Shown: positions 1 through 40,695 of the stretch, one piece after another
Layout: each line of letters begins with the position of its first letter
Position numbering within the stretch: position 1 is the first letter of the stretch
Assembly: GCF_937138205.1 (NCBI RefSeq)
Contig: NZ_CAKZOT010000049.1
Span: forward strand, 1 to 43,165
Direction: 5' to 3'
Length of the DNA: 43,165 nt
From: an uncultured Rhodospira sp.
GTDB lineage: Bacteria > Pseudomonadota > Alphaproteobacteria > Rhodospirillales > Rhodospirillaceae
Position numbers and translations under genes: made by a program
The notes under the pieces: model-generated
Seen by the model: only the letters and a program-made list of their open reading frames with translations
Told to the model about the DNA's origin: nothing
Databases searched by the model: none

Positions 1-97
1 TAATTTCCAGTTATCATCGCCCTCCAAATGTGGCCGACATCGCCCGCCTTCTGGCCGCAGCAGAAAACGGGGGTTTTCCCATCTATCCGGCCGCCCC

Positions 98-1087
98 CTA
101 CCCCCCCGTGACACTCATGTGCCGGGCGATGGCCGGGCGGTTGTCGCGGTCGATGGCGAAGTCGTGGCCCTTGGGCTTGCGGGCGATGGCGGCGTCGATG
201 GCCTCCGACAGCGGGCCGTCGTCGTTTGGGAAGGCCCGCAGCGGCGCGCGCAGGTCGGCGGCGTCCTCCTGGCCCAGGCACATATACAGCGTCCCCGTGC
301 AGGTCAGCCGTACGCGGTTACAGCCCTCGCAGAAGTTATGCGTCAAGGGCGTGATGAAGCCGATGCGCCGGCCGGTCTCGGCCACCTCGACATAGCGCGC
401 CGGGCCGCCGGTGCGGTGGGTGCTGTCGCGCAGGGTCCAGGTTTCGGCCAGACGCTCCCGCACCACCGACAGCGGCAGATAGTGGTCCACGCGGCCGGCA
501 CCGATGTCGCCCATCGGCATGGTCTCGATGAAGCAGAGATCCAGGCCGCGCTCGCCGCACCAGGCGATCAGACGGTCGTATTCGTCGTCGTTGATCCCGC
601 GCAGGGCAACGGTGTTGATCTTGACGTGCAGGCCGGCCGCGCGGGCGGCGGCGATGCCTTCCATCACGCGGTCGAAGTCGCCACGTCGGGTGATGGCCCG
701 GAACCGCTCGGGATCCAGCGTATCGAGCGAGACGTTGAGGCGCCGCACGCCACAGGCGGCCAGTTCCGGCGCGAAGCGGGCCAGTTGGGTGGCGTTGGTG
801 GTCAGGGTCAGTTCGTCCAGGCCGCCGCCGTCGAGCATCCGCCCCAGGCGGCGGAACAGCACCATGATGTCCTTGCGCACCAGCGGCTCGCCGCCGGTGA
901 TGCGCAGCTTGCGGACACCCTTGGCCACGAAGGCGCGGCAGACACGGTCCAGTTCCTCCAGCGTCAGCAGGTCGCGCTTGGGCAGGAAGGTCATCTCTTC
1001 CGCCATGCAGTACTGGCACCGCAGGTCGCAACGGTCGGTGACCGAGACGCGCAGATAGGTGATATGGCGGCCGAAGGGGTCGATCAT
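98..1087 (-). CDS. moaA: GTP 3',8-cyclase MoaA (molybdopterin biosynthesis)
   Basis: Radical-SAM enzyme that, with MoaC, turns GTP into cyclic pyranopterin monophosphate, the first step of molybdenum cofactor synthesis in the cytosol. The 329-residue product has the family's usual length. The radical-SAM cluster motif is CxxxCxYC at C20, C24 and C27. A second cluster is formed by C253, C256 and C270 in the MoaA spacing CX2CX13C. The protein ends in the double glycine that MoaA needs for activity. The frame stays open upstream to 1270, but the start at 1087 ([13 protein letters not shown]) matches the family N-terminus, so the longer form was rejected. The DUF2478-DUF364 gene two genes upstream may be a molybdenum partner (inference). 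A short hairpin at 63-78 lies downstream but lacks a clear T-run. Confidence 0.96.
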
Positions 1088-1300
1088 CCCGGACGGTTCC
1101 CTGTGTCGATGTGTTTGTTTTTGTTTCGGTGTTGTGACCCCAACATAGCGATCCGGGGCCGCACCGACCAGGGGCGCCGCGCGTGACACCGACAGCGACC
1201 CGTTGGTGCGCCGGCGGGCGTGCAACCGCGAGCAAAGGCCCCATTCATGGGGCCGTTTCTGGCCGTCCAAATTACAGGCCTTTGGGAGACGCAGCGGCGA

Positions 1301-1729
1301 CTATGCCTGTTTTTTGCTGATCCGGGACGCGATCAACAGGCACAATGCCAACTCAAGACCGATGATGCCGGCACCAACAATCAAACCGACAGCGGACCAG
1401 TACGCATCTCCCGCGGCAATCGTATAGGCACAAAGCGACATCAAGGGCGGGACGAGAAGCGCGAAAACAGTACTAAAAATATCGGAACCACGCTTTGTTT
1501 TATCGGCCATCTTGGCTAGCGTCAAGAAGCACAGCGTCAGCCCAAGCCCAAGCAAAGTCAAACCCATAATCAGGCCGATGCCAGACCAGTACTCATTCGA
1601 CCCCGCAACAAGGTAAGCGCTGAGCGTCAATACTGGCAGCATCAATATTGCGACGATTCGATTCAATGGACCGCTAGAACCTTTTTGAATCTCAAACCGA
1701 AGCCTCCACTTCTCGTTATCTTTAGACAT
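1301..1729 (-). CDS. small membrane protein with an internal duplication, family unknown
   Basis: I do not recognise this 142-residue protein. It has about four hydrophobic helices in two similar halves: each contains a P-x-L, A-Y, Y-W-S, G-L-I and L-x-L-C pattern about 55 residues apart (AYLVAGSNEYWSGIGLI versus AYTIAAGDAYWSAVGLI). This suggests duplication of a two-helix hairpin. The N-terminus is charged and cytoplasmic-looking. The start at 1729 is chosen because a GGGAG lies 7 nt upstream; a GTG at 1789 is open but falls inside the arm of a palindromic repeat. Base composition is visibly more AT-rich than the neighbouring moaA and DUF2478 genes, which fits horizontal acquisition. An ion-channel or transporter-like role is possible, but nothing in the sequence shows it. 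Confidence 0.7.
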   Translation of the reverse strand: MSKDNEKWRLRFEIQKGSSGPLNRIVAILMLPVLTLSAYLVAGSNEYWSGIGLIMGLTLLGLGLTLCFLTLAKMADKTKRGSDIFSTVFALLVPPLMSLCAYTIAAGDAYWSAVGLIVGAGIIGLELALCLLIASRISKKQA

Positions 1730-1778
1730 AAACGATCTCCCGAAGGCTGTGATTGCAAAGCGGTTATTAATATCTACC

Positions 1779-1875
1779 GGCTTATTCACGTGGCTCAGGC
1801 GAACTCAACATGTTGTACCAGAGAGCTGTCCCAGGGTACCAGACCGCGCCTCTCCCGGAGCCACGTGAATAAGCC
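1779..1875. repeat. 97-bp palindromic dispersed repeat, copy A
   Basis: The 18-bp arms GGCTTATTCACGTGGCTC (1779-1796) and its exact reverse complement (1858-1875) enclose about 61 bp. A second copy of identical length lies at 16627-16723; ungapped comparison by eye gives roughly 76 of 97 identical positions. The arm difference G/T at position 12 is matched by C/A in the opposite arm, so pairing is preserved in both copies. It has no coding capacity and is probably a small non-autonomous palindromic element. It lies just upstream of the small membrane-protein gene and could form a hairpin in its leader. Confidence 0.85.
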
Positions 1876-1939
1876 TTTTCCGGGCACGGTCAACGGCGGC
1901 ACATGGGCTGCTGAGGGAGACGCATAGGCCCATCTTGAG

Positions 1940-3202
1940 CTATAGGCCCGCTGGCGCGCCCAGCACGACATCCCGGCCGAACCGCCGGAGGGCGCGGGCG
2001 CCGCAGCCCTCGGCCACCGCGCGGGCCAGGCCTTCGGCGTCGGTCACCACCAAGCCCGCCAGCGTGGTCACACCGTGGTCGAATAGCATCGGCGACAGCG
2101 GTGTGCCGGGACCGACCACCGTCACCTCGGCATCCGGCCGCGTCAGCGCCAGCAGCCCGGGCAGCGTGCCGTTGGCGAAGGTCGAGGCGGTCAGCAGCAC
2201 CGCGTCGGCATCCGGGATCAGCGCGGCGGCGGCGTGCTCCGGGTGGCGGTCGGGACCGGGCGTGCGCTCGATCACGCGCACGTGCGGGGCACGCTCGCGC
2301 ACGCCCGGGAAGGCGCCGACCATCACCGGCGTCTCGGCCGTGGCGGCGGCCTCGGCGAACAGGTCGAGGCCGTTGGCCGTCTTGCCCGCCAGATCGCCCC
2401 GGTTGAGGTCGGCGTTGAGGGCGGCATTCAGCGCGGCGGCGCCGATCGCCTGGGCCATCGGGCCGTGCCCGCGTGCGCCGACGGCGAGTTCGGCCAGGGG
2501 CCGCCCGGTCAGATCGCCCGCGCCCGGCGGCGGCCGGCAGCCATGCCCGTCCCGCGTCGGCGTCTGCGCCAGGCCGACGCCGTCCGGCCCCTCCACCAGC
2601 GTCCAGTTGAGGCCGACGACGACGCGGCGCGCCGTCGCGTCGGCCGGGACCGCGCTCAGCAGCTCGTCGTACAGGCCATGCGGCCCCCACCAGCGCCAGC
2701 AGGCCTCCAGCGTTGGCGCCAGCAGCCGCCCCACCGGCGCGGTGGCGTGCAGCCAGTCCAGCGCGTGCGACTCCGGCACCAGGGTCAGCACCGGCACGCG
2801 CTCGGCCAGGGCGGCGAACATCTCGTGCGCCAGCCCCTGGCCCTCGGCCTCCAGGTGCGAGAACTTGGAGACGATCAACAGATCGACGCCCCGCGCCAGG
2901 GCCGCGCGCAACACGGTGCTGGCCCCGGCGAGGCCCTGGGTGTCGATGGAGCAGGCCTTCGAGTCCGGGCCGAGCTTCTGCATGATGTCGTGCGGCGCGC
3001 CGGACGCCACATCGATCACGTCCATGCGCACCTTGCGGCCGGCGGCGTCGCGCTCGGTGACCTGGGCCAGCCCGCCGACCCGCACGCCGCGCGCCCGCAA
3101 CGCGGCGGCAAAGGCGCGCAGGTGTGTTTCCGCCGCGCCCTCACCGGAGCGGTAGAGCATGGCCGCCGGGCCGGGGCGGGGTGTTCGTGGATCAGGCATC
3201 AT
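1940..3202 (-). CDS. DUF2478 - DUF4213/DUF364 fusion protein
   Basis: The 420-residue product appears to join two uncharacterised modules. Residues about 15-170 resemble DUF2478 (pattern AMLYRSGEG, a conserved CSIDTQGLAGAS at 84-95, and a terminal W-R-W-W-G-P). Residues about 175-262 resemble DUF4213 (GLNWTLVEG, GLAQTP). Residues about 275-415 resemble DUF364, a Rossmann-like domain proposed for heavy-metal chelation. DUF2478 proteins are typically seen near molybdate or molybdenum-cofactor genes, and moaA lies downstream on the same strand, so a role in molybdenum handling is a reasonable inference. No signal peptide or membrane segment is seen, so it is probably cytosolic. The start could be 3202 or the ATG at 3199; no strong ribosome site is visible. 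Domain names are from memory and need a profile search. Confidence 0.82.
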   Translation of the reverse strand: MMPDPRTPRPGPAAMLYRSGEGAAETHLRAFAAALRARGVRVGGLAQVTERDAAGRKVRMDVIDVASGAPHDIMQKLGPDSKACSIDTQGLAGASTVLRAALARGVDLLIVSKFSHLEAEGQGLAHEMFAALAERVPVLTLVPESHALDWLHATAPVGRLLAPTLEACWRWWGPHGLYDELLSAVPADATARRVVVGLNWTLVEGPDGVGLAQTPTRDGHGCRPPPGAGDLTGRPLAELAVGARGHGPMAQAIGAAALNAALNADLNRGDLAGKTANGLDLFAEAAATAETPVMVGAFPGVRERAPHVRVIERTPGPDRHPEHAAAALIPDADAVLLTASTFANGTLPGLLALTRPDAEVTVVGPGTPLSPMLFDHGVTTLAGLVVTDAEGLARAVAEGCGARALRRFGRDVVLGAPAGL

Positions 3203-3248
3203 GCTCGCCGGACACCAGCCCTAGCCGCTCGTGCCAGTCGGCCAGGGA

Positions 3249-3695
3249 CTAGTCGGGGTAGCCGTCGAAGTGCCGGTCGGCCGGGCCGTCGGGGCCGGCC
3301 ACCCAGTCGGGCTTGCCGGCCAGCATCAGGTGGAGCCGCTCCGGCGGCACCGGCAACGGCGTTTCGATGGCGCCCGCGTGGGGATGGATGAGGTCGGGCC
3401 AGCGCGGATCCCACACCCACAGCGCCGTGCCGCAGTGCTTGCAGAAATGGCGCTCGCCAGGGCTTTCGCCGCCGTCCTCCAGCCGGGCGTGATAAACCGT
3501 GACGTGTTCCCGGCCCGTCACGGCCAACGACGCCGCCTCGGCCCCCAGATTGATGGCGAAGCCGCCGCTGCCGGCCGTCTTGCGGCAGATCGAACAGTAG
3601 CAGAGGTTGAACGGCACAGGGTGCGCGGACTCGACGCTGAACGTGACCGCGCCGCAATGGCAGGATCCGGATAGCTGCATGGGCGAGGCTCCCAT
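3249..3695 (-). CDS. GFA/CENP-V fold zinc-binding protein
   Basis: A 148-residue protein of the family named after glutathione-dependent formaldehyde-activating enzyme. The zinc-binding cysteines are in the expected places: GSCHCG (C12, C14), CYCSICRK (C32, C34, C37) and FCKHCG (C85, C88). The length suits a single-domain member. Most members have no proven reaction, so glutathione or formaldehyde specificity should not be assumed. It lies 46 bp upstream of the DUF2478 fusion gene on the same strand and may share its transcript. It is GC-rich like the surrounding chromosome. Confidence 0.88.
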   Translation of the reverse strand: MGASPMQLSGSCHCGAVTFSVESAHPVPFNLCYCSICRKTAGSGGFAINLGAEAASLAVTGREHVTVYHARLEDGGESPGERHFCKHCGTALWVWDPRWPDLIHPHAGAIETPLPVPPERLHLMLAGKPDWVAGPDGPADRHFDGYPD

Positions 3696-3707
3696 TGGCG
3701 AGCGTTG

Positions 3708-4346
3708 CTACGCGGTGCCGCCGTCCGACGCCGGGTAGGCTTCGTCCCCCGGTCCGCCGGGCGCTGCCGGCGGCGGGGAATAGCTTTCATTGAGGCTGAC
3801 TGCTTCGTCGCTCCACTGCTTTGCTACAGCTTGGTAATTTTCGAACAATGCTGCGTGGTAAATCCACCTGCCGGTGCGTGCGTCCCACCTCCAACGCTCC
3901 CGCTGGATGAAATCAGCGGCAGTATTCCAATCCCGTACAAATGGCCCACGCATCCAGCGTTTATAAAGCGCATCGCTAAACACACCTTCTTGGATGCCGA
4001 TCGCGATCAACTCATAATGGTTCAAATACTGCTGCACATCACTCCTCATCCTTCTGAACTCAGTGGAACTGGGAGAATGTAGTCTATCAAATAGCCCTTC
4101 TTGTTTTACGAAGCTAAACGTTCTGTGAATGCCGCTGTAATGCTCTCCTTGCTCAATCTCGAATATACGAAGCATCGTGTTAATTCTTCTGTTCCGCTCA
4201 GAAGAGTTATAATTCAGGACAACCAAGAGGATCGCCGCCGAAGCAGATATAAATAGAATAATGGGAGAAATAAGGAGGGCCCACAGAGGCGGCCATTGTT
4301 CAGACGTGGCAACCGCTACCAACTCAGGGTTAGGCGCCATATCCAT
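3708..4346 (-). CDS. DUF4760-like single-pass membrane protein
   Basis: A 212-residue protein with one N-terminal transmembrane helix (about residues 23-45) followed by a soluble helical region. The central part (LNHYELIAIGIQEGVFSD, then WMRGPF and FIQRERWRWD) resembles DUF4760, a family of unknown function often found in accessory regions; this assignment is from memory. The tail is proline- and glycine-rich. The start at 4346 has GAGG 7 nt upstream. The gene is clearly more AT-rich than the flanking GFA and cobS genes, suggesting transfer. It sits directly downstream of cobS, where cobT is often found, so it may have displaced part of a cobalamin operon (inference). Confidence 0.75.
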   Translation of the reverse strand: MDMAPNPELVAVATSEQWPPLWALLISPIILFISASAAILLVVLNYNSSERNRRINTMLRIFEIEQGEHYSGIHRTFSFVKQEGLFDRLHSPSSTEFRRMRSDVQQYLNHYELIAIGIQEGVFSDALYKRWMRGPFVRDWNTAADFIQRERWRWDARTGRWIYHAALFENYQAVAKQWSDEAVSLNESYSPPPAAPGGPGDEAYPASDGGTA

Positions 4347-4390
4347 CGCGGGCCCTCAAATCTACGACCACATCCAACGCTATCTATGCT

Positions 4391-5377
4391 TTACGCCACC
4401 GTCAGGTTGACCGCGCTTTCCTTCAACTCGGCGCCGAAGCAGCGCTGGTAGTACTCGGCGATCAGCGGCCGTTCGGTCTCGTCGCACTTGTTGAGGAACG
4501 TCACCCGGAAGGCGAACGCCACATCGCCGAAGATGGTGGCGTTCTCGGCCCAGGTCAGCACGGTGCGCGGGCTCATGACGGTGGAGATGTCGCCGTTGAT
4601 GAAGCCGTTGCGGGTCAGGTCGGCGACCGCCACCATCTGGCTGATCAGCTTGCGGCCCTCGGGCGTGTCGTACTCGGGGCGCTTGGCGACCGAGATCTCG
4701 ACCTCGGCGTCGTGCTCCAGATAGTTCAGGGTGGCGACGATGTTCCAGCGGTCCATCTGCCCCTGGTTGATCTGCTGCGTGCCGTGATAGAGGCCGGTCG
4801 TATCGCCCAGACCGACCGTGTTGGCGGTCGAGAACAGGCGGAACGAGGGGTGCGGCCGGATCACCTTGTTCTGGTCCAGCAGGGTCAGGCGCCCTTCGAC
4901 CTCCAGCACGCGCTGGATCACGAACATCACGTCCGGGCGGCCGGCGTCGTACTCGTCGAACACCAGGGCGCAGGCGTGCTGCAACGCCCACGGCAGAATG
5001 CCCTCACGGAACTCGGTCACCTGCAGGCCGTCGCGCAGCACGATGGCGTCCTTGCCCACCAGATCGATGCGGCTGACGTGGCTGTCCAGGTTCACCCGGA
5101 TGCAGGGCCAGTTGAGGCGGGCGGCCACCTGTTCGATGTGGGTGGACTTGCCGGTGCCGTGGTAGCCCTGGATCATGACGCGGCGGTTGTGGGCAAAGCC
5201 GGCCAGGATCGCCAGCGTCGTATCGCGGTCGAAGCGGTAGTTGGGGTCGAGGTCGGGCACGTGCTCGGTCTTCGTCGAGAAGGCGGGCACCTGCTTGTCC
5301 GAATCGATGCCGAAGACCTCGCGCACCGAAACGGTGGTCTCGGGTGTCGTCAGAGGTGGCTCGGCGGAGATATCCAT
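4391..5377 (-). CDS. cobS: cobaltochelatase subunit CobS
   Basis: AAA+ ATPase subunit of the aerobic cobaltochelatase CobNST, which inserts cobalt into hydrogenobyrinic acid a,c-diamide during cobalamin synthesis. Walker A is GYHGTGKST at residues 71-79 and Walker B is ALVFDEYD at 137-144, with sensor sequence [11 protein letters not shown] further on. The 328-residue length is normal. The start at 5377 ([10 protein letters not shown]) has GAGGA about 5 nt upstream; the frame extends to 5458 but that extension has no family character. The usual partner cobT is not next to it; downstream comes an AT-rich DUF4760-like gene. cobB of the same pathway is 18 kb away. No cobalamin riboswitch signature was found upstream. 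Confidence 0.96.
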
Positions 5378-5869
5378 GGGGTCCTCGTACGGGTTCTGGA
5401 AACGTGGGCGGAGCGTACTGCAAAGCGCGGCGCCGTGAAAACGGCTTTCACGACTCATCGGCCGACGGACCGCTGGTGATGGGCCGCGCGGCCGGCCGCT
5501 TTGGGCGGGGGCGTTTGCCGGCGCGTGCGCAGGCCTGAGCGTTCAGCGCGGTGTTTCCGGTCCGGCGGTCGGTCGGACTGACGCGGCGACTCTTCCACAC
5601 GGCCCCAGACATGGGGGCGAACGCCCCCAGTGTCCACTGCGGGTCCGATGCACCGCCGCGTCAAGCCCGCGCCACCATAGGGGGTCCGCCGCTTGTAGGT
5701 GTAGCCGGGGGAGACAAGCGCCCATTCGGATTTGAGCGTGTCGAGACCACGGAGGCGTAATAACAGCGGGTCTGCGGGAACCAAGTGAATAGGTAGGCGA
5801 CCCACAAGAGTCCATATCCGAACGGATGGCCTCTGTGGGACCGAGCCGCGCGCTTGGACATCCGCGCCC
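5378..5869. other. 492-bp intergenic region without a credible gene
   Basis: This gap lies between thiC and cobS. Short open frames exist in several phases, but none has a ribosome site and a recognisable product. A 66-residue frame at 5661-5861 on the minus strand looks like repeat-derived sequence. A 7-bp inverted repeat CGTGAAA/TTTCACG (5434-5452) lies 57 bp upstream of the cobS start and could be an operator or hairpin. A stretch at 5776-5793 resembles one arm of the 97-bp palindromic repeat. No cobalamin riboswitch motif is visible. Confidence 0.5.
5776..5793. repeat. possible degraded arm of the 97-bp palindromic repeat
   Basis: GGAACCAAGTGAATAGG matches the right arm of copy B (GGAGCCAAGTGAATAAG) at about 15 of 17 positions. 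No convincing second arm is seen about 97 bp upstream. It may be a decayed third copy or a chance match. Confidence 0.35.
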
Positions 5870-7917
<2,048 letters not shown>

Positions 7918-29361: not shown

Positions 29362-29491
29362 GGTCGGACCCCTGTCGGGTCGTGGGAAAGCGGGCGTCGG
29401 TGTCAGGTGCCATGCCGCCGACGGTCCCGGACCTCCTCCGTGTCAACTCGTAGCCATCAGCGTTGGCGAAAGCCGACCGGAAAAACGAACT

Positions 29492-29593
29492 GTCATTGCG
29501 AACCCTCGTCGAAAGACGAGGGTGAAGCAATCCAGAGCGTAAAGTGCAAATAGCCGCTCTGGATTGCTTCGTCGCTGCGCTCCTCGCAATGAC
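29492..29593. repeat. CATTGCGA/GAAGCAATCC palindromic repeat, copy 1
   Basis: The 102-bp element opens with GTCATTGCGA and closes with TCGCAATGAC. Inside are a perfect hairpin CCCTCGTC-GAAA-GACGAGGG and a 16-bp inverted repeat GAAGCAATCCAGAGCG. It belongs to a widespread bacterial palindrome family that is often mistranslated as 'VIARSEATKQS'. It lies in the 350-bp gap (29362-29711) between two genes of one transporter operon and could form a strong mRNA structure there. The rest of the gap shows nothing I can identify. Confidence 0.9.
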
Positions 29594-29711
29594 GAGATGG
29601 AGAAGCAGTATGTGACTCCAATCGCCGGGATGGAGCGGCGGCGGCGTCATGGCTTCGCGTCGGGAAGCCATGACGTGACGCCCCGGCGCGGTGGCGTCGG
29701 ATCGCCCGCCG

Positions 29712-32356: not shown

Positions 32357-33187
32357 ATGCAACGCCTCAATTTCATGCAGGTATGGACAGTCCGGACCAA
32401 GCGCGGCCTCCTTCGAACGATGGGGGTGCGACACCGCGCCGGCCTCGCCGTCGTGGCCGTGGCGGCCTGGATCGGCCCTGTCGCGGTGGGCGACTCGGGC
32501 GCGGGGGCGTGCGACCGCGACCGTCTGGTGGTGGCGCTGGACATCGGCCACACCCCTTCCTCATCCGGCGCCACCAGCGCCCGGGGCCGGCCGGAGCACG
32601 CCTTCAACGTCGATCTGGCGCGGCGGGTGCTGGCGCACATGCACGCCGCCGGGCTGGACAAGGCGGCGCTGATCGCCGAGCCCGACGCCGAACCGGACCT
32701 GTGGGACCGGCCGCGCCGGGCGGCGGCGCTGGGCGCGCATGTGCTGCTGTCGATCCACCATGACTCGGTGCAACCGCGGTATCTGGAGCACGGCACGCTG
32801 GAGGGCCGCCCCGCCCGCTTCAGCCGCCACGCCGCGGGGTATTCCCTGTTCGTTTCCGGCAAGAACCTGTTCTTCGAGCAAAGCCTGGCCGTCGCCCGGG
32901 CCATCGGCGGGGCGCTGGGCGAGTGGGGCCTGTCGCCCACCCTGCACCACGCCGAGCCCATCGCCGGCGAGAACCGTCCCCTGCTGGACCGCGACCTGGG
33001 GATTTACGACTTCGCCGACCTGGTGGTGCTGAAGGCGGCGGCCATGCCGGCGGTGCTGATTGAGGCCGGGGTGATCGTCCACCCGGAGGAGGAGGCGCGC
33101 CTGCGCGACCCCTTCCACCAGGACATCCTCGCCGACGCCATCACCCGGGGCGTGGTCGAGGCGTGCGGTGTGCTGATGGGGGGGTAG
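32357..33187 (+). CDS. N-acetylmuramoyl-L-alanine amidase (Amidase_3 type)
   Basis: Zinc amidase that cleaves the bond between MurNAc and the peptide stem of peptidoglycan. The 276-residue protein has an N-terminal hydrophobic export segment (about 27-50), then the Amidase_3 zinc ligands H65 (DIGH), E80 and H134 (SIHHDS), with catalytic E236 (LIEAG). It has no extra SPOR or cell-wall-binding domain. GAGGA lies about 7 nt before the ATG at 32357; a shorter form from M22 would place the signal peptide closer to the start but has no ribosome site. A diverged second copy of its 3' end lies 780 bp downstream, beyond higBA. Confidence 0.9.
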   Translation: MQRLNFMQVWTVRTKRGLLRTMGVRHRAGLAVVAVAAWIGPVAVGDSGAGACDRDRLVVALDIGHTPSSSGATSARGRPEHAFNVDLARRVLAHMHAAGLDKAALIAEPDAEPDLWDRPRRAAALGAHVLLSIHHDSVQPRYLEHGTLEGRPARFSRHAAGYSLFVSGKNLFFEQSLAVARAIGGALGEWGLSPTLHHAEPIAGENRPLLDRDLGIYDFADLVVLKAAAMPAVLIEAGVIVHPEEEARLRDPFHQDILADAITRGVVEACGVLMGG

Positions 33188-33287
33188 GCCTGCGCGCCCC
33201 AAACACCCTTCCCATGCGATGCGGTTTGCAAGCCGCGACGGTTGTCCACCCCGTCTCCCGCGAGAGTGTCTCACATTGATTTACGGT

Positions 33288-33308
33288 CTGTCGCATAGTG
33301 CGCTACAG
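33288..33308. promoter_or_regulatory. probable HigA operator upstream of higB
   Basis: The imperfect palindrome CTGTCGC / GCTACAG (33288-33308) lies 8 bp before the higB start and overlaps the likely promoter (TACAGT at 33304-33309). HigA-type antitoxins usually repress their own operon from such a site. Confidence 0.45.
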
Positions 33309-33316
33309 TCTCCGGC

Positions 33317-33592
33317 ATGATCCGGAGCTTCCGGCATAAGGGGCTCAAGGCCCTGTTCCTGGATGGCGCGACGCCGAGGATCGCGCCGGCCCTGCACGCC
33401 CGGTGCCTGCCGATCCTGGACGCGCTTGATGCCGCCACCCGGCCCGAGGACATGAACATCCCCGGCTGGAACTTCCATGGTCTCCGGGGATCGCCGAAGC
33501 GGTGGTCGGTCCACGTCAACGGGCCGTGGTGTGTGACGTTCGAGTTCGAGGACGGCGACGCCTGGCGTGTCGACCTCGAGAATGATCACTGA
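33317..33592 (+). CDS. higB: HigB-family toxin (RelE/ParE superfamily)
   Basis: Ribosome-dependent mRNA interferase of a type II toxin-antitoxin module. The 91-residue protein has the HigB/PIN-like consensus: MIRSFRHKGL at the start, the I-P-G-W-N-F-H-x-L stretch around residue 50, and the end WSVHVNGPWCVTFEFEDGD. The toxin gene precedes the antitoxin, as is usual for higBA. The short leader lacks a strong ribosome site. The pair is inserted between an amidase gene and a second amidase-like 3' end. Confidence 0.95.
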   Translation: MIRSFRHKGLKALFLDGATPRIAPALHARCLPILDALDAATRPEDMNIPGWNFHGLRGSPKRWSVHVNGPWCVTFEFEDGDAWRVDLENDH

Positions 33593-33604
33593 AGGAGACG
33601 CGCG

Positions 33605-33943
33605 ATGCCCGAGGAGTTGCCCGAGGAACTGATCTTGTCCGGCCGCCCGCGTCGCTGCCCCAGCCACCCCGGGCTGGTCCTGCGCGACACCGTGCTGCCG
33701 GCGCTTCGCCTGAGCGTAACGGCCGCCGCCCGGGAACTGGGCGTCTCCCGCCAGACTCTGCACCGCATCCTGGCCGGGGAGGTCGCGGTCACGCCCGCCA
33801 TGGCGGTCCGTCTCGGCCACTGGTGCGGCAACGGACCGGAGGTTTGGTTGCGGATGCAACAGGCGCACGACCTGTGGATCGCCGCGCGGGACCTGGAAGA
33901 CGACCTGACCCGCATTCCCCGGCATACCGACGCGGTGGCGTGA
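33605..33943 (+). CDS. higA: HigA-family antitoxin
   Basis: A 112-residue antitoxin with an Xre-type helix-turn-helix (VTAAARELGVSRQTLHRILAG) and the HigA-specific tail with WLRMQQAHDLW. It neutralises HigB and should repress the operon by binding the upstream palindrome. It starts 12 bp after higB with GGAGA 7 nt upstream, so production is coupled to the toxin. Confidence 0.95.
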   Translation: MPEELPEELILSGRPRRCPSHPGLVLRDTVLPALRLSVTAAARELGVSRQTLHRILAGEVAVTPAMAVRLGHWCGNGPEVWLRMQQAHDLWIAARDLEDDLTRIPRHTDAVA

Positions 33944-33966
33944 TCGCCGGACCGGAGCGAAGGAGG

Positions 33967-34029
33967 CATCCTCACCACCTCCATCACCCGGGGCGTGGGC
34001 GAGGCGTGCGGGGTATTGTTGGGGGGTGA
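33967..34029 (+). pseudogene. remnant of an amidase gene 3' end
   Basis: About 63 bp match the last 63 bp of the amidase gene at 33124-33187 at roughly 51 of the first 60 positions. In the same frame it reads ILTTSITRGVGEACGVLLGG and then stops, against ILADAITRGVVEACGVLMGG in the intact gene. No upstream amidase coding sequence is present; higA ends 23 bp before. It is a fragment left by duplication or by insertion of higBA at the gene end. Confidence 0.75.
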
Positions 34030-34175
34030 CGACCACGACCGTGGGGCACCCCTTCAGGTGGGCCGTCGAAAAGTTGCGAACACACGCAAAAGATTTTTTC
34101 TCACGAAATACACTTTTCGCGAGGCTTCTTTTCCGCTAACCTCCGCCGATCAACATGAGCCCGGGAGGAACACCG

Positions 34176-35240
34176 ATGCCGAAGTCTCTTGTGGTCCTGT
34201 GCGATGGAACCTGGCAGAGCGCCGACCGCGAGTACCCGACCAATGTCCGGCTGTTCTACAATGCGCTGCGAAAGCGCGACCCCGACGGCGCGCTGCAACT
34301 GGCCTACTACCAGGACGGCGTGGGGACGGACGGGCTGCTCGACAAGCTGCTCGGGGGCGGCTTCGGCGTCGGACTGTCCGACAACGTCAAGGAGGCCTAT
34401 CGCTTTGTGGTGGACAACTTCGCCCCGGGCGACCGCCTGTTCCTGCTGGGCTTCAGCCGGGGCGCCTACACCGCCCGAAGCCTGGCGGGGTTCATCGGAT
34501 ACGCCGGGATCCTCAAGCGCGAGGCCTACCGGACCGACCCGTCCTTCTTTGTCGACCTGGTGACGACCGACCGCGCCGAAGCCATCGATGCACTCTATGA
34601 TCTGTACAAGATTGGCGACGATCGGCCCGACATCGCCGACACCCGGTTCGCCGACGAGGTCCACCGCGAAACGCCGGTGGAGTTTCTCGGGGTCTGGGAT
34701 ACCGTCGGCGCCCTGGGCATTCCGGTGCTGAACCCGGACGCCCCGGTGAACCGGCTGTACCAATTCCACGACGTCACGCTGGGTGGCCACATCAAACGGG
34801 CTTACCACGCCGTCTCCATCGACGAGCGGCGCGGCACCTTCCGCGCCACCCTGTGGAAGAAGCGCGACGACGCCCCGGACGATCAGGTGGTCGAGCAGGT
34901 CTGGTTCGCCGGCGACCACGGCGGCGTTGGCGGCGGGAACTTCGTCGACGGGCTGTCCAACATCGCTTTTCAGTGGATGTGCGAAAAGGCGATGGCCTGC
35001 GGCCTGACGCTGAACACGGCGTCGGACACCCCGGACGGCATCGGCCATCCCGACCGGCAGGGATACATCCTGGATCCGGCGGGGGACGGGCTGCACGGCT
35101 TTTTCGCCCGCCTGCCGCAGTATGCCCGCGACGTGATGTACCCGGGATACGCGGGCCAGTCGGTCCACCCGTTGGTCGACAAGAAAATCCAGGAGGACCC
35201 GACCTACGAGCCGGAGAACTACACGCCTTCGGCCCCGTGA
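34176..35240 (+). CDS. DUF2235 alpha/beta hydrolase (phospholipase-like)
   Basis: A 354-residue protein of the DUF2235 family, which includes the Tle1 phospholipase effectors of type VI secretion and many free-standing hydrolases. The likely catalytic triad is S94 in GFSRGAYTAR, D175 in VWDTVGA and H248 in GDHGGVGG. No signal peptide is seen, and there is no VgrG, Hcp or immunity-like gene nearby, so an effector role is not supported here. GGGAGGA lies 6 nt before the ATG at 34176. The leader (34070-34150) is AT-rich. It converges on the PD-(D/E)xK-like gene across a perfect hairpin at 35258-35282. Confidence 0.9.
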   Translation: MPKSLVVLCDGTWQSADREYPTNVRLFYNALRKRDPDGALQLAYYQDGVGTDGLLDKLLGGGFGVGLSDNVKEAYRFVVDNFAPGDRLFLLGFSRGAYTARSLAGFIGYAGILKREAYRTDPSFFVDLVTTDRAEAIDALYDLYKIGDDRPDIADTRFADEVHRETPVEFLGVWDTVGALGIPVLNPDAPVNRLYQFHDVTLGGHIKRAYHAVSIDERRGTFRATLWKKRDDAPDDQVVEQVWFAGDHGGVGGGNFVDGLSNIAFQWMCEKAMACGLTLNTASDTPDGIGHPDRQGYILDPAGDGLHGFFARLPQYARDVMYPGYAGQSVHPLVDKKIQEDPTYEPENYTPSAP

Positions 35241-35257
35241 TCATCGGGAAACCGCCC

Positions 35258-35282
35258 GGGACGGGAGGACACCTCCCGTCCC
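35258..35282. terminator. hairpin between convergent genes, probable bidirectional terminator
   Basis: A perfect 11-bp stem GGGACGGGAGG / CCTCCCGTCCC with loop ACA fills the 56-bp gap between two convergent stop codons. The T-tracts on both sides are short, so termination strength is uncertain. Confidence 0.5.
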
Positions 35283-35296
35283 TCAGTGCCTGCGCC

Positions 35297-35977
35297 CTAC
35301 TCTGCCGCGTCGGCCGGCGCGTGCTCCAGCAGCAGATGGACGGCGTGCGTAACAGCCGCGACATCGGCCTCACTGACCGTCACCTCAAGATCACCGTGGA
35401 CCACCCGATTGCGCAGGTTCTGGACCTCGCGCAATCGCCGTTCCTCGTCCAGCATGAGGTATCCCTCCGAGGCCAGCAATCCGACGAGATGGGCCGGCAT
35501 CTGCGGCTGCGCCAGGCGCTCGGGCCAGCGCCAGCGCGCCGCCGCCTCCAGCGTCGCCCAAGCTGAGACAAGGGCCATGTCGGGACCCGTGGCGCGAAGG
35601 ATAGAGTCGATCCGGGCCAAGCGATCCTCGACCGTTCTACGGTCCGTCGCGGTCAGGTCGGGATCCAGACTGTCCGGTGACACCGAGACAAGCTGGTACT
35701 CCCACTCGGGATGATCCGCGAGCGCCACCTGTGCCTGCCGAGCCCGCTCCGACAGGTTAACGCCTCCGGGCCGGGCCACGCGCCGCTCCTTGATATCGAT
35801 CGCCAGGTTTCGACCGGCCTTCATGGCGATCAGATCGGGGCGGACGTTCGCCAGGAACGTCGGCAGAAGGGAGCCGTCGCGACCCGTGAACACCTCGTAT
35901 CCCTCGTCCTTGAGGCGAGCCGTCACGAGCGCCGTCATGGCCCGTTCCCGATCGCGTCTGCTGTGGTCGCCTGTCAT
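35297..35977 (-). CDS. PD-(D/E)xK nuclease-like protein with HEPN-like C-terminus
   Basis: A 226-residue protein not recognised by name. The N-terminal half has a restriction-nuclease-like pattern: E25, then RPDLIAM (P47-D48) and LAIDIKER with D61-x-K63, spaced as in the PD-(D/E)xK fold. The C-terminal half is helical and ends with LRNRVVHG, where R189 and H194 give the Rx4H signature of HEPN ribonuclease or nucleic-acid-binding domains. Its ATG overlaps the stop of the upstream RusA-like gene (ATGA, 35974-35977), so the two are translationally coupled. A DNA-targeting defence or repair function is inferred from these motifs and the accessory surroundings; domain assignments need structure prediction. 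Confidence 0.75.
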   Translation of the reverse strand: MTGDHSRRDRERAMTALVTARLKDEGYEVFTGRDGSLLPTFLANVRPDLIAMKAGRNLAIDIKERRVARPGGVNLSERARQAQVALADHPEWEYQLVSVSPDSLDPDLTATDRRTVEDRLARIDSILRATGPDMALVSAWATLEAAARWRWPERLAQPQMPAHLVGLLASEGYLMLDEERRLREVQNLRNRVVHGDLEVTVSEADVAAVTHAVHLLLEHAPADAAE

Positions 35978-36396
35978 TCCGCCACCTGCCGAAGAGGCTG
36001 ATCGTCGATTCGGACGTAAAGGATCGGCCGATCCCCTTGCTGGGCTTGCGTGAGGAGGGAACTTGGCTTGAGGAACTGGATGTCATCATCCGGTTCGAAC
36101 CGCTGAACCAAGAGTCTGGCTACCTGCTTGTCGTCCCTATAGATGTGCCGACTCATGGCATCCAGGATCGGTTTGATGATGTTGTCCAGGTCTCCCGAAC
36201 CGGATCCATCGGTGAAATAGTACACGGTCACGGCGACCAACGCATCGGTGGCGAAATGCCCCTCGGGCAAGGCGGATCGGCTGGCCTCACGCACAGTGCC
36301 CTTCCAGTCGGCCAGGGCATCGCGCCGCGCCGACTGATGTGACGGCGGTGTTCCCAACACAAGAAACTCGACCGGGAACACGATCACCACACCCAT
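35974..36396 (-). CDS. RusA-like Holliday-junction resolvase
   Basis: A 140-residue endonuclease-type protein matching RusA. The acidic catalytic residues sit where E. coli RusA has them: D69, D71 and K75 in GDLDNIIKPILDAM, and D88/D89 in YRDDKQV. RusA dimers cut four-way DNA junctions; many copies are phage-derived. The start at 36396 has GGGAC 9 nt upstream and directly precedes the domain; ATG at 36423 is also possible. It is followed without a gap by the PD-(D/E)xK/HEPN-like gene. No phage genes surround it, which makes a chromosomal defence or repair cassette plausible (inference). Confidence 0.9.
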   Translation of the reverse strand: MGVVIVFPVEFLVLGTPPSHQSARRDALADWKGTVREASRSALPEGHFATDALVAVTVYYFTDGSGSGDLDNIIKPILDAMSRHIYRDDKQVARLLVQRFEPDDDIQFLKPSSLLTQAQQGDRPILYVRIDDQPLRQVAE

Positions 36397-36482
36397 GCCC
36401 GCAACGTCCCGGCAGCCCCTCATCCTGGAAACGCGAGACTAACAGGTAGCCGCTATCCATGCGAAGGCTGTTCGCAGACCCC

Positions 36483-39400
36483 CTACTCCGCCGCCATGCT
36501 CGGCGCGGGGGTGCGGAAGGTTTCCAGCAATGCGGCCTCCTTGGCCTTGGCGGCGGCGACGTTGGCCTCCAGAACGTGGCCGAAGCCGCGCATGTCCAGC
36601 GGCAGGCGGGCGAGGTCGACCGCCACGGCGTGGTTGTCCCGCGTCAGGCCCTCGATCAGCGTGTCGACCAGGGTCCTGTAGTCCGCCGCCAGCCGCCGCT
36701 GCATCCGCCGTTCCGCCGTGCGGCCGAAGGGGTCGAGCGGCGTGCCGCGCAGGCCTTTCAGCGCCGCCAGCGCCCGGAACGCCCCGAACACCCACGGGCC
36801 GTAGTCGCGCTTCACCAGATGGCCGGTGACCAGATCGCGTTTCGCCAGCAGCGGCGGCGCCATATGGAAGGTCGGGCGCGGCGTGCCCGTGAACCGGTCC
36901 TCCAGCATGGCCTTGAACCGGCCGTCGGTGTACAGCCGCGCCACCTCGTATTCGTCTTTGGTGCTCATCAGCTTGAACAGCGCCCGGGCCACGGCGTCGG
37001 TCAACGCGGTCTCGCCCGCGCCCATCACCCGCGCCTCGGCGGCGCGCACGCGCGCCACGGCCTTGCGGTAGCGTTTCGCATACCGACCGGTCTGGTAAGC
37101 CCGCAGCGACGCCGCGCGCCGGTCGATGGCCTCGTCGAGGGAGTCCGACAGCCGCCGGTCGCCCGCTGTCTCCGCCTCGGGTCCCACCAGGGCCAACACC
37201 CGGTCGGGGTGTTCGGCCATGCGCCGGCCCCACAGGAAGGCATCCAGGTTGGCCTGCACCGCCGCGCCGTTCAGCGCCACCGCCCGTTCCAACGCGGCCC
37301 GGCCGATGGGGATCAGCCCTGCCTGCCACGCGTACCCGACCATGAACAGGTTGGCGGCGATGCTGTCGCCCAGCAGAGCCGTGGCAATGCGCGTGGCGTC
37401 GACATACCGCGCCTCCTTCGCCGCGTCGGCGATGGTCTCGCGCAGCCGCCGGTCCGGATAGGCCAGGTCCGGGTGTTGCGTGAAGTCGGCCGTCATCACC
37501 TGTTGCGCGTTCATCACCGCCACCGTCAGGCGCCGGCGCATCTTGGCCAGCACGTCCGCGCCCGCCGCCGTGACCATGTCGCAGCCCAGCAGCAGGTTGG
37601 TGTTGCCGGCGGCGATGCGCACGGCGTGGATGTCCTCCGGGGCGCGCGCGAGCCGCACATGACTGACCACCGCCCCGTTCTTCTGCGCCAGCCCCGTCTG
37701 GTCGAGCACCGACACACCCTTGCCCTCCAGTTGCGCGGCCATGCCGAGGATGGCGCCGATGGTCACGACGCCGGTACCGCCGATCCCCGTGATCAGGATG
37801 TCATAGGGCACGGCCTGGGTGATGTCCGTGGCCGGCTCGGGCAGCGGCGGGAAGGCGTCGACGCCGCCCAGGGCGCTGGCCCGCGCGCTGGCCCGTTTCG
37901 GGGTGGCACCGGAGACGGTGACGAAGCTGGGGCAGAAGCCTTTGACGCAGGAGAGGTCCTTGTTGCAGGTGGACTGGTCGATGGCCCGCTTGCGGCCGAA
38001 CTCGGTCTCCACCGGCACGATGGACACGCAGTTGGACTGCACGCCGCAGTCGCCGCAGCCCTCGCACACCGCCTCGTTGATCACCACGCGGACGTCGGGG
38101 TCCTCCATCAGGCCGCGTTTGCGGCGACGCCGCTTCTCGGCGGCGCAGACCTGGTCATAGATCAGCACGGTCACGCCCTTGATCTGGCGCAGGTCCCGCT
38201 GCACCGCGTCCATCTCGTCGCGGGGGTGCACGGTGGCGCAGGCGGGCAGGTCGGCGTCGGCGTGCCGGACCGGGTCGTCGGCGACGATGGCGATGCGCTT
38301 CGCCCCCTCGCCCTCCATCTGGCGAGCGATCTGCGGCACGGTCAGGGTGCCGTCCACCGCCTGCCCGCCGGTCATGGCCACGGCGTCGTTGTACAGCACC
38401 TTGTAGGTGACATTGACCCCGGCGGCCACGGCCTGCCGGATGGCCAGCGAACCCGAGTGAAAGTACGTGCCGTCGCCGATGTTGACGAACACGTGCTCCA
38501 TTTCGGTGAAGGGTGACAGGCCGACCCAACTCGCCCCCTCGCCGCCCATGTGGGTGAAGGTGCGGGTGTTCCGCTCCGGCATCCAGGTGACCATGTAGTG
38601 GCAGCCGATGCCGGCCAGCCCGACGCTGCCCTCGGGCACCTTGGTCGACGTGTTGTGCGGACAGCCGGAGCAGTAGTACGGCAGGCGCTTGGTGGGCGCC
38701 GTCTTTTCCGACAGCTCCGCCTCCTTGCGCTCCAGCCAGGCGAGGCGCTGTTCCATGGTGTCCAACGTGACGAACCGGCGCAGTTGCCCGGCGATGGCGC
38801 GGGCCACCATGGCCGGCGTCAGTTCCCCGTGCGACGGCAGCACGACCGCGCCCGTCTCGTCGAACTTGCCCACGACACGCGGCCGCACGTCCTCGCGCCA
38901 GTTGTAGAGCTGTTCCTTGAGCTGGTTCTCGATCAGGGCGCGCTTTTCCTCGACCACCAGGATCTCGTCCAGGCCCTCGGCGAAGCGGCGGATGCCCTCG
39001 CGCTCCAACGGCCAGGGCATCCCCACCTTGTACAGCCGCAGGCCGAAGTCGCGGGCGATCTGTTCCGTGATGCCCAGGTCGGCCAGCGCCTGGCGCACGT
39101 CCTTGTAGGTCTTGCCGGAGGCGACCAGGCCCAGGCGCGGCTGCGGGCTGTCGAAGACAACACGGTCGAGCCGGTTGGCGCGGGCGAAGGCCAGCGCGGC
39201 GTAGATCTTGTGCCGCATCAGCCGCTGTTCCTGGGCCAGCGGGGTATCGGGCCAGCGGATGTGCACGCCGTCCGGGGGGAAATTGAAGTCGGTCGGTGTG
39301 ACGATCTCCAAGGCCAACGGATCGACGTCGACCGACCCGCCGCTGTCGCACATCTCGCTGATGGCCTTCATGGACACCCACAGGCCGGCGAAGCGGCTCA

Positions 39401-40162: not shown

Positions 40163-40224
40163 CGACGCCTGTGGGAGCGAAAATCCGCATGAGTGGTATA
40201 TTAAGCACCAAAGACACGCACTCC

Positions 40225-40326
40225 GTCATTGCGAGGAACGAAGTGACGAAGCAATCCAGGGCGACTACATCATGAACAAGCCCTGGATTGCTTCGCCGGC
40301 GTCCAAAGACGCCGGCTCGCAATGAC
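40225..40326. repeat. CATTGCGA/GAAGCAATCC palindromic repeat, copy 2
   Basis: A 102-bp element, the same length as copy 1 at 29492. It opens GTCATTGCGAGG and closes TCGCAATGAC, with inner arms GAAGCAATCCAGGGC / GCCCTGGATTGCTTC and a perfect hairpin GCCGGCGTC-CAAA-GACGCCGGC in the right arm. In copy 1 the extra hairpin is in the left arm. Confidence 0.92.
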
Positions 40327-40354
40327 GGGTTTTGTGCGGGCCTCTCGCCCAGCC

Positions 40355-40465: not shown

Positions 40466-40490
40466 ACGGCTGCGAACAGGATCATGACTC

Positions 40491-40604
40491 GTCATTGCGA
40501 ACCCTCGTCGCAAGACGAGGATGAAGCAATCCAGGGCGTAGGACACCAGTATTCGCCCTGGATTGCCCCAGTTTTGGTTTTTGGGCCTCGCTCCTCGCAA
40601 TGAC
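40491..40604. repeat. CATTGCGA/GAAGCAATCC palindromic repeat, copy 3
   Basis: A 114-bp element opening GTCATTGCGA and closing TCGCAATGAC, with a left-arm hairpin CCTCGTC-GCAA-GACGAGG and inner arms GCAATCCAGGGCG / CGCCCTGGATTGC. The right arm carries extra sequence with GTTTTGGTTTTT not present in the other copies. Confidence 0.9.
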
Positions 40605-40695
40605 GAGAATAAGTGAAGATGTGTGAATCGGATAGCCCCGCCCCCCCACGGGCAGAGGCGCGCAACTCCCGTCGCGCCGATCCCGCCCGTCGCCC

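Follow-up and report, generated by a model that had tools for sequence, protein, structure and literature searches.

A RusA-family nuclease gene coupled to an AHJR-like/HEPN gene: a candidate mobile defence module

The closest described systems and the gene pair in the window

The domain survey of Anantharaman et al. (2013, PMC3710099) states in its main text that HEPN-M is "occasionally fused" to a previously undetected archaeal Holliday junction resolvase-like REase, and these HEPN-M/AHJR-like REase fusions (PF18743) have the same two-domain arrangement, an REase with a DUF86/HepT-type HEPN domain, as the protein described here. The name RusA occurs 0 times in that main text, which thus does not describe a RusA operon; it is also absent from the available text of two recent defence papers (PMC12839542 and PMC13092281), and no description of a RusA/AHJR-HEPN pairing was found in the open-access literature that we searched. 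A sequence-only reading of this locus had considered the pair undescribed, which holds, within that literature, for the pairing with RusA but not for the REase-HEPN combination, already known from PF18743 and the main text of PMC3710099.

The HepT-MntA (MNT-HEPN) toxin-antitoxin system (PDB 7bxo, 5yep, and 7ae9) has in common with our pair the HEPN fold (a weak match), an R-x4-H motif, and a two-gene operon. It differs in that our HEPN domain is fused to an Hjc-like domain and has RusA, not a nucleotidyltransferase, as its partner. Further, the HepT motif is R-x4-H-x-Y, whereas in AHJR-HEPN the residue two after the histidine is not tyrosine. As for membership of the HepT-like/MNT-HEPN group, PF01934 scores below its cut-off, and the overlapping partner is RusA, not MntA, in 22 of 23 loci. 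Archaeal Hjc (PDB 2eo0, 1hh1, and 2wiz) shares its fold and an alignment over PD...(D/E)xK with the N-terminal domain of AHJR-HEPN, but the latter is fused to HEPN, and its lysine is not conserved in the family. The RusA Holliday junction resolvase (PF05866; PDB 1q8r and 2h8c) has the same fold and catalytic residues as our RusA, which, however, is tied to an AHJR-HEPN partner and whose junction cleavage is putative.

We analysed a stretch of 43,165 nucleotides from an uncultured Rhodospira sp. (the window), in which the following features concern the pair.

35974..36396, minus strand: RusA-family nuclease of 140 aa (P0002), first gene of the pair (PF05866, PHROG, AF2, Foldseek, conserved residues)
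35297..35977, minus strand: AHJR-like PD-(D/E)XK plus HEPN protein of 226 aa (P0001), second gene (PF18743, PF01934, Hjc profile, AF2, Foldseek)
35663..35950, minus strand: AHJR-like nuclease domain, about residues 10-105, with D48, D61, and K63 (Pfam match to residues 10-102; family alignment)
35318..35641, minus strand: HEPN domain, about residues 113-220, with E144, R189, N190, and H194 (five model helices; conserved R/H/E; Foldseek)
33949..36480, no strand assigned: segment missing from congener G002, carrying a PF09994 gene, RusA, and AHJR-HEPN (blastn/tblastn against four congeners; G002 junction sequence)

The RusA and AHJR-HEPN genes (35297-36396) were found on the minus strand, with the coordinates, residue positions, and ATGA overlap given in the sequence-only reading. 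We took the ATG at 36396 as the RusA start, as the family alignment begins there and not at the longer ORF start at 36423. No Rfam match for a cis RNA was present in 33000-37000, and no sigma-70-type promoter was seen in 35200-36600 in a simple consensus scan, which makes the latter weak evidence. We note that a 14-nt near-repeat with 1 mismatch (35295-35308 and 36481-36494) brackets the pair and lies at the 3' ends of the AHJR-HEPN gene and an oxidoreductase gene.

The first gene encodes a RusA by profile and by fold. Its product matches PF05866 (E 1e-9, 39.5 bits, above the curated cut-off of 22.8) and PHROG RusA-like families, and its AF2 model (pLDDT 84, pTM 0.82) has E. coli RusA, 1q8r, as the best PDB match in Foldseek (E 1.2e-4, TM 0.81 by target length); no match came from searching PDB sequences with the RusA alignment, although the fold search matched. 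Residues D69, D71, and D89 are kept in 20/20 aligned homologues, K75 in 19/20, and D88 in 18/20, and the assignment and the catalytic positions proposed from the letters alone are thereby borne out.

The second protein consists of an N-terminal PD-(D/E)XK domain of the archaeal Holliday junction resolvase type and a C-terminal HEPN domain with an R-N-x3-H motif. Its N terminus matches PF18743 (AHJR-like) with E 6e-11 and 42.4 bits against a cut-off of 26.1, a family that also matches 21 of 21 members of the AHJR-HEPN alignment at E <=0.01 (L056 scoring below the cut-off), and it aligns over the PD and (D/E)xK parts with the profile of Hjc 2eo0 (E 0.0018). The C terminus matches HepT-like PF01934 with E 6e-4, below the curated cut-off (20.0 versus 23.5 bits); 16 of the 21 alignment members match that family at E <=0.01. 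The AF2 model (pLDDT 78, pTM 0.54) shows an alpha/beta domain at the N terminus and, in the C-terminal half, a helical region of five helices; archaeal Hjc resolvases are its best PDB matches in Foldseek (E 4e-3), and the HEPN matches are AF0298 (2hsb; E 0.015, TM 0.61 by target) and HepT (E ~0.02). Because Foldseek gave 0 matches with E <1e-3, we regard the model evidence as supportive, not strong; the structure prediction suggested by the sequence-only reading returned a model that is compatible with both folds, at weak scores. Both AF2 alignments had 5 rows each (the window and loci L008-L011).

Active sites and conservation of the pairing

Active-site residues were counted over 20 rows of the AHJR-HEPN alignment, from which the divergent row L044 was excluded. 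The RNase motif of HEPN domains is Rx4-6H with a polar residue after R (PMC3710099, main text), and R189, H194, and E144 are present in 20/20 rows, the residue after R being N in 19 and D in 1; the Rx4H motif noticed earlier is thus kept throughout, in a supported domain. In the AHJR domain, D48 is found in 20/20 rows and D/E61 in 19/20, but position 63 is K in only 10/20 rows, R in 4, and V or L in 6, with K63 present in the window protein. Hence the PD-(D/E)xK core claimed for the second gene stands as a domain (PF18743 above cut-off), whereas its lysine is not conserved in the family (10/20). On the best tree (21 rows, L089 added), which was built with the lysine column itself included, there are 4 changes of the K label, 2 of them forced by well-supported branches. 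Together, these counts indicate constraint on the RusA site and on the RNase-type site, whereas part of the family can do without the Hjc-like lysine. Because catalytic residues can migrate in the PD-(D/E)XK superfamily (available text of PMC1189080), a loss of AHJR activity is something that we infer from the loss of the lysine.

The two genes occur together far more often than expected by chance: a RusA gene lies directly upstream, on the same strand, in 22 of 23 AHJR-HEPN loci, which come from two classes of one phylum. The genome survey of adjacency thus agrees with the coupling proposed from the window, and 21 of the 22 paired loci are the window itself or were found through the second protein alone. 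Further, when tblastn was run with each protein separately, the same 6 plasmid records were matched, with the genes adjacent, and a single-peptide-pattern scan of genome contigs, a method that reaches near relatives, gave 4 further loci. Near-relative loci are present in the sample (L002/L008/L038, L004/L006, and L005/L010), so that independent cases of pairing are fewer than 22; two of the 22 are broken copies (L043 and L055), and we note that L043 (G240; 5837-6749) is a decayed copy of the pair with split frames in both genes. The counts leave out L045 and L046 (21-23 bits with A1), whose fetched flanks hold no RusA, and 17 genomes scoring <=28.5 bits.

We searched 385 genomes of the class with both profiles; AHJR-HEPN was matched in 10 of them and RusA in 15. 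The 6 genomes with full-length AHJR-HEPN, together with G240 (partial), are exactly the 7 genomes with strong RusA matches, and the two genes adjoin in all 7. The remaining 3 AHJR-HEPN matches are weak, one of them G305 (L044), which is divergent and lacks RusA, and two covering the HEPN half only; the other 8 RusA matches are weak and partial. Across the phylum, the Pfam AHJR-like family was found in 6 of 398 genomes, with RusA adjoining in 6/6, so the module is rare and sporadic. A broader AHJR-HEPN profile matched 23 of the 398 genomes. Six of these score >=189 bits, and all six have RusA; the other 17 score <=28.5 bits, match chiefly in the HEPN part, and show no RusA in the flanks fetched. 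In a single-sequence search, the second protein had no match in 59 other genomes near the host. The AHJR-like family was also seen above cut-off in Caulobacter vibrioides (1/14 control genomes).

The sole unpaired locus among the 23, L044 (G305; 5455-6099), holds a divergent AHJR-HEPN with a degraded nuclease site and the HEPN R..H kept, and there is no RusA in the 12 kb fetched. It scores 30 bits with A1 and 47 with A7, was counted as the exception, and is perhaps a lone relative of the system.

Of the 18 loci in which the gene junction was measured, 16 show an overlap of 1 or 4 nt; in L054 the genes are 1 nt apart, and in L056 another in-frame ATG would give an overlap of 4 nt. Distances between RusA proteins follow those between AHJR-HEPN proteins: with L008 and L055 excluded, 18 loci give a Mantel r of 0.93, which 0/20000 permutations reach. 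Common genome descent contributes to this correlation. In the protein tree, members of family f95 fall into two groups and a third, unresolved place, which only suggests horizontal transfer because the groups are not strongly supported.

Insertion sites and neighbouring genes

The pair behaves as a mobile unit, being present or absent as ~1.1 kb in one genus, that of G785, in which it lies alone between cytochrome c and HTH-cupin genes. At the 15 congener loci (L075-L089), the flanks lie within ~50 nt of each other in five (L077, L078, L079, L081, and L082), the pair is at the site in one (L089), other cargo of 0.5-1 kb is found in five (L075, L076, L083, L087, and L088), and no right flank was present within the fetched 1.5 kb in four (L080, L084, L085, and L086). 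Among this cargo, L076 has RES and Xre toxin-antitoxin genes, L087 has an Xre-type antitoxin, and L083 has a DUF1835/DUF3658 gene; because the site also takes unrelated cargo, it looks like a general hotspot. In congener G002, ~195 nt separate HigA from the ferredoxin-oxidoreductase gene, versus 2.5 kb in the window, where the PF09994 gene and the pair intervene. In G001 and G003, no HigBA was present beside the oxidoreductase gene in the stretches fetched, and the G004 contig stops ~640 nt beyond that gene. The GC content of the pair is below that of its flanks in 17 of 19 loci, by a mean of 6.4 points over rows that are not independent. Short dispersed repeats, which we take to be REP-like, occur in the window at 29488-29594, 40223-40331, and 40485-40605 and also in the HigA/oxidoreductase junction of G002.

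In the window, the pair has as neighbours HigB (PF05015), an HTH protein, and a PF09994 gene (Pfam), and HigBA and a hydrolase of DUF2235 (presumably the former name of PF09994, T6SS_Tle1-like_cat) do adjoin as first described. HigBA had been taken as the sign of a defence patch, which did not stand: it adjoins the same flanking gene in the pair-less congener G002, and its proximity is therefore weak evidence. The sequence-only reading placed the pair outside a prophage, which may hold: Pfam found no phage structural families among the four neighbouring genes. The PF09994 gene (T6SS Tle1-like catalytic domain; 34155-35240) is convergent with the pair; it was found in no locus outside its own genome, nor in five congeners, and was rejected as a third module gene.

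Elsewhere, ten proteins near L004, L006, and L007 were scanned by PADLOC, and Pfam was applied to ten near L004, L006, L007, and L010; three related Rhizobium plasmid loci have Mrr-type restriction genes, and one of them also has AbiE and another PD-Lambda-2. At 11 loci outside the plasmid records, Pfam found no known defence families in the 20 nearest genes, and neighbours there include release factor 1, ribosomal protein L21, cobalamin genes, and ThiC. PADLOC-DB 2.0.0 gave 0 families at E <=1 for RusA, AHJR-HEPN, and the PF09994 neighbour and has no model of the pair. We also note that, in L005 (Agrobacterium pTi_CFBP2177, 1-7831), the pair is located between a stretch with ImuA, DNA polymerase Y, error-prone polymerase, and LigD and an ATP-binding protein gene; other Agrobacterium plasmids match only the polymerase/LigD stretch, among the matches listed (25 of 219 records).

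Proposed function and rival explanations

We put at about 50% the reading that the pair is a mobile two-gene nuclease module that forms a small defence (abortive or dormancy) system organised in the manner of a toxin-antitoxin operon. Of the readings considered, it is the most likely; the function is one that we infer from structure. The RusA and AHJR-HEPN products would act together: the AHJR (Hjc-fold) domain, and perhaps RusA, would recognise branched DNA, such as the intermediates formed when an invading phage or plasmid recombines or replicates, and the junction would be cut by RusA. The AHJR domain may be mainly the DNA-binding or sensing part, because the catalytic lysine is often lost. 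Engagement of branched DNA would then release the HEPN RNase, which would cleave RNA and stop growth or phage production. Put in its strongest form, this means that two unrelated Holliday junction resolvase folds watch the branched DNA of invaders, with RusA cutting and the Hjc-like domain sensing and activating the HEPN RNase, a form that we offer tentatively, at well under even odds. Just as tentative is its corollary, that the Hjc-like domain has often been stripped of its own nuclease activity and that DNA-junction sensing is tied directly to RNA destruction.

Pointing to a defence module are the pairing (22/23), the recovery of the same 6 plasmid records by separate tblastn searches, the gene overlaps, and the Mantel correlation of 0.93; the near-invariance of the RusA catalytic residues and of HEPN R/H/E, in contrast to an AHJR lysine present in 10/20 rows; the GC content below that of the flanks (17/19) and the exact presence or absence at a site where a congener carries RES-Xre; the three Rhizobium plasmid loci among Mrr, AbiE, or PD-Lambda-2 genes; and the 12 viral RusA-like loci without AHJR-HEPN. 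On the other side, the 11 non-plasmid loci have no known defence family in their 20 nearest genes, and the three defence-rich loci are close relatives and the sole loci whose neighbours were scanned by PADLOC. Further, PADLOC has no model, the HEPN match of the window protein falls short of the Pfam cut-off, no RusA was present in the 12 kb fetched for L044, and loss of the lysine need not equal loss of activity, given the migration of catalytic residues reported in PMC1189080 (available text).

The main rival is a plain toxin-antitoxin pair, in which the HEPN protein would be an RNase toxin, RusA an antitoxin (by binding or enzymatically), and the pair would be kept by addiction and not by immunity. 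Two small overlapping genes that are sporadic and swapped with RES-Xre toxin-antitoxin genes at one site fit this, as do the PDB matches to HepT and the role of HEPN as the toxin of known MNT-HEPN toxin-antitoxin pairs (PMC3710099, main text). However, nearly all homologues keep the RusA nuclease site, for which an antitoxin has no obvious need; the partner is not an MNT, and the Hjc-like fold on the toxin goes unexplained. We consider this rival unlikely.

Next comes an accessory DNA repair or recombination operon, in which two junction-processing enzymes would resolve Holliday junctions and HEPN would be structural; this we regard as less likely again. Both nuclease folds are resolvase folds, and on one Agrobacterium Ti plasmid the pair adjoins the ImuA, DNA polymerase Y, error-prone polymerase, and LigD genes, but other Agrobacterium plasmids match only the polymerase/LigD stretch, among the matches listed (25 of 219 records). 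Against such an operon, half of the rows have lost the AHJR lysine but none the HEPN motif, and the distribution is sporadic (6/398 genomes), with the second protein unmatched in the 59 other near-host genomes by single-sequence search.

It is very improbable that the pair is a self-moving element of a homing-endonuclease-like or transposon-like kind, in which RusA or the AHJR nuclease would cut empty sites. The insertion is small, comes without another mobile gene, occupies many different sites, and in the window has the 14-nt near-repeat; however, we found no shared terminal repeats or target duplication across 19 loci, where only the window (1/19) exceeds all its random controls, and the site in the genus of G785 takes unrelated cargo. 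A transposon or homing element was therefore rejected.

That an ordinary phage-derived RusA stands beside a HEPN gene by chance in one lineage is hardly credible: phages commonly carry RusA-like proteins (PHROG matches; the 12 weak IMG/VR loci), but the conserved adjacency in 22/23 loci of two classes contradicts it, the IMG/VR loci score 28-43 bits with the module RusA profile and have AHJR-HEPN in 0/12 fetched stretches, IMG/VR holds no relative of AHJR-HEPN, and tblastn of phage records matched neither protein, on which grounds a phage origin of the pair was rejected.

If the defence reading is true, the pair would be a compact defence or toxin-antitoxin-type module triggered by DNA structure (branched intermediates) and not by sequence, modification, or a nucleotide signal. 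Together, the two genes span only ~1.1 kb and are easy to express. The AHJR-like/HEPN fusion, a description of which we found only in a domain survey, would then gain a partner and a testable function.
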